Below are positions 6,085 through 59,016 of a stretch of DNA of 64,000 nucleotides, piece by piece. How positions within the stretch are numbered: position 1 is the stretch's first letter; each line of letters starts with the position of its first letter. A model generated the notes under the pieces. The model did not search any database. It was not told the origin of the DNA and was given only the letters and a program-made list of their open reading frames with translations. Both the position numbers and the translations under genes were made by a program. Source of the stretch: Fuerstiella marisgermanici (lineage in GTDB: Bacteria; Planctomycetota; Planctomycetia; Planctomycetales; Planctomycetaceae). The stretch covers positions 434,001 to 498,000 of the forward strand of contig NZ_CP017641.1 of assembly GCF_001983935.1 (NCBI RefSeq), in the 5' to 3' direction.

Positions 6085-6232
6085 CTAAATCACTCCCCAC
6101 CAAAAAGGGAACACGGTGCTTTCGAGTGTGGCCGGGGTTGGACTTAGCGAAGCGAAGGAAACCCCAGGGTTTCACTGGTTGCTGGCTCCAACTCCGGCCA
6201 CACAACTCGCTCCCAATTTCACGAGGATCTAT
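6085..6232. repeat. Dispersed foldable intergenic repeat, family A, copy 1
   Basis: About 148 bp that recur at 52452-52601 and 58786-58936. The three copies share an A-rich start, GGGAGCACG, GAGTGTGGCC, GGGTTGG, GAAGGAAACCCC, a CCAAC/CCACACA segment and the end GCTCCC...AAGGATCTAT. Arms GTGTGGCCGGGGTTGG and CCAACTCCGGCCACAC pair almost perfectly, and the outer ends of the copies can pair as GGGAGC/GCTCCC, so each copy can form one long hairpin. It lies just upstream of the DinB-like gene. Confidence 0.85.
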
Positions 6233-6265
6233 TTAGAACTGTCGACACGCTCACTCCTTCCGGAT

Positions 6266-13638: not shown

Positions 13639-13730
<92 letters not shown>

Positions 13731-52451: not shown

Positions 52452-52601
52452 CTAAATTACTCCGCACCCAAAAAAGGGAGCACGGTTCCTTTGAGTGTGG
52501 CCAGGGGTGGCATCAGCGAAGCAAGGGAAACCCCAGGGCTTCGCTCGTTCCTTGTTCCAACCCCGTCCACACACCGCGTTCCCAATTCCGCAAGGATCTA
52601 T
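52452..52601. repeat. Dispersed foldable intergenic repeat, family A, copy 2
   Basis: About 150 bp matching 6085-6232 and 58786-58936. Here the inner arms AGCGAAGC / GCTTCGCT pair fully and the outer GTGTGG / CCACAC pair too. It lies between the divergent-promoter side of DoxX and the end of the low-complexity protein gene. Confidence 0.85.
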
Positions 52602-52626
52602 TCTGCGTGAGACGGAGTGAATATTG

Positions 52627-58785: not shown

Positions 58786-58936
58786 CTCAATAACTCGCCA
58801 CCAAAAAAAGTGGGAGCACGAATCCTTCGAGCGTGGCCTGGGTTGGACTGAGCGAAGTGAAGGAAACCCCGGGGGGGCACTCGTTCCTCGCAACGACCCA
58901 TCCACACACTTCGCTCCCTATCCCACAAGGATCTAT
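58786..58936. repeat. Dispersed foldable intergenic repeat, family A, copy 3
   Basis: About 151 bp matching 6085-6232 and 52452-52601. Contains GGGAGCACG near the start and CGCTCCC near the end, which pair. It lies between convergent genes (zinc-ribbon protein, rightward; HAD hydrolase, leftward). Confidence 0.85.
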
Positions 58937-59016
58937 CTGGCAGGAAATCAGAACGGCACCGATGGTACGCGGTGCCGTTCGTGATATCGCGCTGCGATGG
59001 GCAGCGTCTTGCGAAA

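Follow-up and report, generated by a model that had tools for sequence, protein, structure and literature searches.

A repeat family of Fuerstiella marisgermanici that joins a REP-like doublet core to terminal arms resembling the ends of an IS630-family element

Small repeats of bacterial genomes are usually classed either as MITEs, which are built from transposon ends, or as REPs and REPINs, which are built from hairpin doublets. Several described systems lie close to the repeat family reported here. RUP is a 107-bp intergenic element of pneumococci with 108 copies, and the account of it that we consulted proposes IS630-Spn1 as its mobiliser (PMC2229807). For the IS630/Tc1-mariner group, the description of ISY100 gives cut-and-paste insertion into TA, with duplication of the TA (PMC2170065). 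REP dimers lying within long palindromes have been reported as GTAG-15 in A. variabilis and CGTC-1 in H. neapolitanus and, according to the same report, palindromes free of a core are absent from these two genomes (PMC3733652).

Our repeat, hereafter family A, was noticed in a window of 64,000 nucleotides (positions 434001-498000 of the single 8.92-Mb contig of F. marisgermanici, genome G000). The window holds three copies of ~152 bp, all on the + strand and all with E values far beyond chance: copy 2 matched copies 1 and 3 by BLAST at E 3.8e-33 and 6.6e-23, while the profile E values of the three copies were 3.1e-37, 2.7e-33 and 9.5e-32. The first-pass annotation, made from the letters alone, had located all three, and both BLAST and the profile agreed; when the boundaries were refined by the ends of the genome-wide family, the right ends moved outwards. 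The features are as follows.

6085..6236, + strand: family A copy 1, full element (C-TA-AAT ... ATT-TA-G), from sequence, BLAST and profile, with ends taken from the genome-wide family
52452..52605, + strand: family A copy 2, full element, from sequence and profile, right end placed by eye
58786..58940, + strand: family A copy 3, full element, from sequence and profile, both ends diverged and placed by eye
6130..6203, + strand: REP-doublet core of copy 1 (core model R2, E 1.1e-15)
52499..52572, + strand: REP-doublet core of copy 2 (core model R2, E 1.4e-9)
58835..58907, + strand: REP-doublet core of copy 3 (core model R2, E 1.5e-10)

From three copies, the same annotation had supposed a chromosomal family of many members, and such a family does exist. 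BLAST returned 16 matches in the whole genome, and the profile returned 86 at E<=1 (56 at E<=1e-3), which reduce to 61 places once 25 of the 86 are merged as second-strand matches at the same place, the element being palindromic. These places are spread from 0.09 to 8.79 Mb, 28 on the + strand and 33 on the - strand. Among the 57 distinct cores of this genome, family A arms were assigned to 40 (at both ends in 13), arms of another type (type II, see below) to 1 and none to 16; thus, not every one of the 61 places is a full family A element. Six copies lie inside 30 kb at 2468088-2497714, two of them (2468088 and 2468234) adjacent to each other. At L119 1501-1563 (own genome, from 1227037), an element of ~63 bp has family A ends and no core, being either a deletion derivative or a core-free form. 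At L052 1501-1650 and L048 1501-1642, the core, judged by eye, has the opposite orientation to the arms, and the profile matches on the two strands score 87.4 and 82.9 bits and 97.2 and 71.9 bits, respectively.

The comparison set included 8 genus genomes, and the assemblies of relatives are mostly drafts. With model R1, a covariance model whose 5-bp structure is meaningless and which was therefore used as a sequence profile, matches were found in 8 of 58 genomes, the own one included. Under the stricter settings used with core model R2, only the own genome was positive out of 149 from the phylum, and G035, positive with R1, was lost as well. Named genomes contain at least 116 matches; the 80 matches listed come from 12 assemblies, of which, by their titles, 11 bear planctomycete names and 1 is named only 'bacterium'. 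When 35 loci of relatives, which are highly diverged, were compared with the own loci by blastn, flank similarity was found right beside the copies in one pair (L058/L082) and farther from them in two (L143/L037 and L081/L097).

Alignment of the copies defines the element sharply. Conservation ends at the outer C of CTAAAT on the left and at the outer G of ATTTAG on the right, and the columns outside are near random (30 left and 31 right ends). These two motifs head inverted terminal arms, which appear only once the copies are aligned, so that the initial impression that no insertion-sequence ends were visible did not hold. Nor are the A-rich start and the AAGGATCTAT end the most constant blocks, as had been thought: the central 74 bp average 89% identity to the consensus against 68-79% in the arms, a contrast that is partly one of ascertainment, since the 27 own-genome rows were found with a centre-dominated profile. 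This core consists of two inverted REP-like halves, both containing CCCCGGGG.

The domain DDE_3 has five matches at four places in the own genome. One of these, L322, is an apparently complete IS630-family element of 1176 bp (8325838-8327013), which surfaced in an anchored 17-mer scan; its gene encodes a transposase of 347 aa, which matches the NCBIfam IS630 equivalog (E 1.2e-54) as well as DDE_3, and is bounded by inverted CTAAATAGCT... ends. Both ends of L322 agree with the left arm of own-genome family A at 22 of 30 letters and with its right arm at 21 of 30; against G004 family A, the two ends score 23 and 24/30 with the left arm and 21/30 with the right arm, and the two ends of L322 agree with each other at 24/30. 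In the reversed control, run with the G004 left arm only, the best score was 17/30 across six IS630 loci, rising to 19/30 over the 64-kb window. The first-pass annotation had suggested looking for a transposase with matching ends; here the ~30-bp terminal arms of family A resemble the ends of an IS630-family (Tc1/mariner-type) element of the same genome. A broken relative of L322 with a similar end lies near 1.48 Mb. L322 itself directly adjoins the stop codon of a 394-aa ORF, and the TAA of that stop sits inside the CTAAAT end. More distantly related is another DDE_3 element, L321, whose ends begin, by eye, with CTAAATGA.

When 44 transposase loci were screened earlier by local alignment for six motifs at a 99% threshold, L322 was not flagged. 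Five loci exceeded the threshold, L294 clearly, for the core, and L301, L317, L318 and L321 weakly, which is about the chance level. Among the 8 genus genomes, the L322 transposase occurs only in the own genome, apart from a fragment in G005. No match to it was found in G004 at E<=1e-10, despite 24 cores with family A ends there; the partner in G004 has therefore been lost, been missed or is a different one. As the own arms match L322 at 70-73%, L322 need not be the actual partner.

The early suggestion of a MITE-like element is supported by the inverted arms at the ends, the dispersal over 61 places and the similar ends of an IS630-family element, and family A is probably a non-autonomous IS630-type MITE of ~152 bp, with a REP-doublet palindrome at its centre in place of a transposase gene. 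IS630 prefers CTAG as a target. An IS630-type transposase made elsewhere would bind the family A arms in trans, cut the element out and paste it at the TA of a C-TA-G site, so that only the TA would be duplicated. A TA-only duplication of this kind would account for the lack of a longer one, and also for C and G being the last conserved letters on either side.

Indeed, no convincing duplication of 4-12 bp was seen in 23 own copies or in 11 copies of G004, no convincing long one in a 21-copy test, and none of 2-11 bp in 21 copies of G004, where the best z was 3.1 at k=2, off the TA position. At the TA position itself, letters on the two sides matched in 29/54 cases under strict anchors (27 copies) against 22.1 in shuffles (p 0.008), and whole dinucleotides were equal in 7 copies against 4.3 (p 0.09). 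Under laxer anchors (39 copies), 37/78 letters matched where shuffles gave 30.0 (p 0.027), and dinucleotides were equal in 8 copies where shuffles gave 5.5 (p 0.14); an earlier, looser test based on the alignment (33 copies) gave p 0.0145. The TA letters are constant in 15-18 of 27 copies, below the outer C (23) and the outer G (20), and no empty insertion site was found for family A. These figures are weakly suggestive of a TA duplication. The family A copies are old and decaying.

The core is not confined to family A arms. Cores of this kind lie inside type II arms, GGGTGCAGTAACGGATTGTGG...CTGCACCC, in G001 and G007, and there exactly 8 bp are duplicated at the flanks of the element (identity 0.546 vs 0.251, z 8.4, in the 19 both-ended, non-duplicate elements of 30 loci). 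Starting from 54 type II left ends in G001, 36 two-ended entries were obtained, a few elements being counted from both ends, and 11 of them had at least 6 of 8 matching letters where 0.23 were expected. Among 22 copies of G001 and G007 picked by their core, 15 had type II ends, 7 none assigned and 0 family A ends (type I). The 69 distinct cores of G004 divide into 24 with type I ends, 17 with type II, 12 with a third type and 16 with none assigned, both ends being typed in 15, 8 and 4 elements of types I, II and III; as the cut-off for each type was set at 99% of shuffled flanks, chance may account for a few per cent of the calls made at one end only. Arms of the third type, resembling GTCGCTNAGAGGCTGTGAATTAA by eye, surround the same core at L351, L350, L364, L366 and L376 of G004, and no type III ends were called in G000. 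At L095, L101 and L102 of the own genome, cores lie, by eye, inside arms that differ again (TCATGGAT...) and may represent a fourth end type. An opposing pair of type II ends 400-4500 bp apart, as an autonomous partner would have, was not found in 70 loci, of which 30 extend no farther than ~1.5 kb per side. A general inverted-repeat test of the arms of cored copies gave mostly no signal, palindromes being counted from both strands, and we do not rely on it.

We compared 111 cores, a subset of the typed copies (type I, 37 from G000 and 23 from G004; type II, 15 from G004, 14 from G001 and 15 from G007; type III, 7 from G004). Within G004, the core consensus is identical over 73 positions across types I, II and III, and the core shows no association with end type (p 0.35 for I vs II and 0.33 for II vs III). 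Between genomes, cores of the same end type differ, both for type II (G004 vs G001+G007) and for type I (G004 vs G000), with 0/2000 permutations in either case and 4-6 consensus differences per comparison; the type II cores of G001 and G007 gave p 0.057. Diagnostic core letters agree with this result. A tree of the cores proved too noisy (23 changes for genome and 28 for end type), and the consensus and permutation comparisons were used in its place. The core consensus follows the genome and not the end type; cores are thus shared between backbones within one genome lineage, by what would have been capture or conversion.

How this sharing arose can be read in two ways, both compatible with family A being a MITE. 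Arms and core might form a fixed composite of single origin that spread as a unit, the identical cores of G004 being due to later gene conversion; this is quite possible, if short of probable. It agrees with the fact that 33 of the 36 two-ended G001 entries, which were selected solely on their type II left end, have a recognisable core (29 by motif and 4 by eye). In 21 elements of G001 and G007, moreover, the core stands at 91% and the right end, unused in picking, at 80%, and a core less diverged than the right end is what conversion predicts. A fixed composite fits less well with the type II backbone of G001 carrying an unrelated core too: the 36 entries comprise 25 with the REP-doublet core (4 of them by eye, and 1 scored as having both cores), 8 with a palindrome starting with GTAG, and 3 with neither. 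The second palindrome, mostly GTAG...CTAC with GGGACCATCGTCCC...GGGACAATGGTCCC, occurs inside type II arms at the following loci.

L158, L160, L172, L391, L392, L397, L401, L405, L420 (G001): second palindrome in type II arms

Two cores in one type II backbone mean that cores do get replaced. We propose, tentatively, that the core may be a genome-specific passenger that was repeatedly copied into unrelated backbones (the IS630-type one, the one with the 8-bp duplication and the third) and spread by several transposases, while backbones swap cores. MITE ends and REP core look like combinable modules, given several kinds of ends around one core in a single genome, and, if cores do move between backbones, a sequence without a transposase could ride on several of them. 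A single REP-doublet core in several transposon backbones was not found described in the literature searched, most subscription papers being outside it.

The doublet invites a different explanation, in which family A would be a REPIN. A RAYT (Y1) transposase would then move the REP doublet itself, in single-stranded form, and the CTAAAT arms would be its palindromic target sites. The early comparison with REP-like elements stands for the core, where an inverted doublet of REP-like hairpins is present, and fails for the rest of the element. In favour of a REPIN, cores from other Planctomycetota contain spacers and in many cases lack clear arms (a variable spacer frequently lies between the two halves in RI_301 and bin120), different backbones of one genome share a single core consensus, and REP dimers inside palindromes have a precedent in the report cited above (PMC3733652). 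Compensatory changes between lineages also suit two separate hairpins: among 34 hand-chosen cores, the two-hairpin fold showed 12 both-side changes against 3.9 in shuffles (0/500), 10 of the 12 falling at one column pair and perhaps reflecting a single event. Across 160 cores, positions 60/85 read C-G in 90 and T-A in 45, positions 99/123 read T-A in 46/87 and C-G in 14/87, and positions 60/123 form a broken C-A in 41/87, a pattern that fits master copies constrained hairpin by hairpin and a small number of independent events. A single long cruciform as the conserved fold showed nothing beyond chance between lineages, unlike the two hairpins.

The partner that such a REPIN would need is not in evidence. 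The core lies near 0/9 of the own Y1 loci, and of 39 Y1 loci (the 9 own and 30 of 33 matches in other genomes), 1 has a clear core within 1.5 kb and 1 further place a weak match, a lack of linkage that speaks against a RAYT/Y1 transposase as the partner. By eye, neither a GTAG nor a CGTC tag is present at the ends of the core consensus. Moreover, the family A arms resemble an IS630 end, and the 8-bp duplications of G001 and G007 lie outside the type II arms, meaning that arms and core moved together there. We thus regard a REPIN as an unlikely account of family A. Long inverted repeats distinct from family A lie on both sides of the Y1 genes at L017 and L018 of the own genome (local alignment, no control).

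The gene context was read with a home-made hexamer ORF caller. At 59 of the 61 places, no predicted ORF is overlapped (overlap being counted from 25 bases upward); 33 places are tandem, 14 convergent, 9 divergent, 3 undecided and 2 overlapping. In the window, the ORFs around copies 1, 2 and 3 are divergent, tandem and convergent; the caller makes copy 3 tandem because the left-hand ORF, which also lacks a Pfam match, is uncalled there. Copy 1 is crossed by a mechanical ORF that has its GTG start at 6116 and continues into a DinB_2 protein; the DinB_2 domain starts at residue 83, downstream of the copy. Several copies appear to adjoin a predicted stop codon directly, because, as read from the coordinates, the CTAAAT end supplies the TAA.

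A place outside ORFs would also suit a structured RNA or a cis-regulatory hairpin kept for its fold (a terminator, an sRNA or something riboswitch-like), and predicted RNA folding is strong in copies 1 and 2 (z -4.9, -3.5 and -1.6 for copies 1-3 on the + strand; -4.2, -2.6 and -0.9 on the - strand). In 33 aligned copies from G000 and G004, pairing is retained at 80.7% against 80.6% in shuffles and covariation is 0.086 against 0.085; for the two-hairpin fold, covariation in the 33 sequences is 0.102 against 0.091, which 86/500 shuffles reach, and the left-end hairpin is borderline, with 9 both-side change cells against 5.7 (44/500). Pairing within copies is at the shuffled expectation, and there is no fold under selection in family A; the pairing looks inherited from a palindromic ancestor and now decaying. 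An Rfam search of the window gave no match to family A at the gathering score, reporting only a tRNA. The window has a tRNA gene on the + strand at 13639-13725. With covariation no higher than in shuffles, no Rfam match, and copies on both strands in mixed gene contexts, the structured RNA raised in the first-pass annotation is very improbable.

Overall, we return to family A as a probable IS630-type MITE with a REP-doublet core, a reading in which the IS630-family element of the own genome makes the mobilisation step directly testable. ISY100 belongs to the same family as the transposase proposed here, and it is autonomous, whereas family A has no gene (PMC2170065). The MITE described in PMC3189936 has a 4-nt duplication of CTAG or YTAA, a pattern unlike that of family A. 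REPINs, as presented by Bertels and Rainey (2011, PMC3116915), share with our core the two inverted REP-like hairpins and the extragenic location; in family A, by contrast, the doublet lies inside transposon-like arms and has no consistent RAYT linkage. GTAG-15 and CGTC-1 likewise place a REP dimer inside a longer palindrome, although one backbone is described for each of these families, while here three or more backbones share one core and a single backbone carries two different ones; for a REP dimer in a palindrome, the palindromes of PMC3733652 are the closest known case. RUP, according to its description, has terminal repeats that resemble an IS630 element of the same genome and TA at its insertion sites, as family A does in its arms; it differs in sequence and host, and that description mentions no REP-doublet core (PMC2229807). 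For the element as a whole, RUP with IS630-Spn1 is the closest known case.
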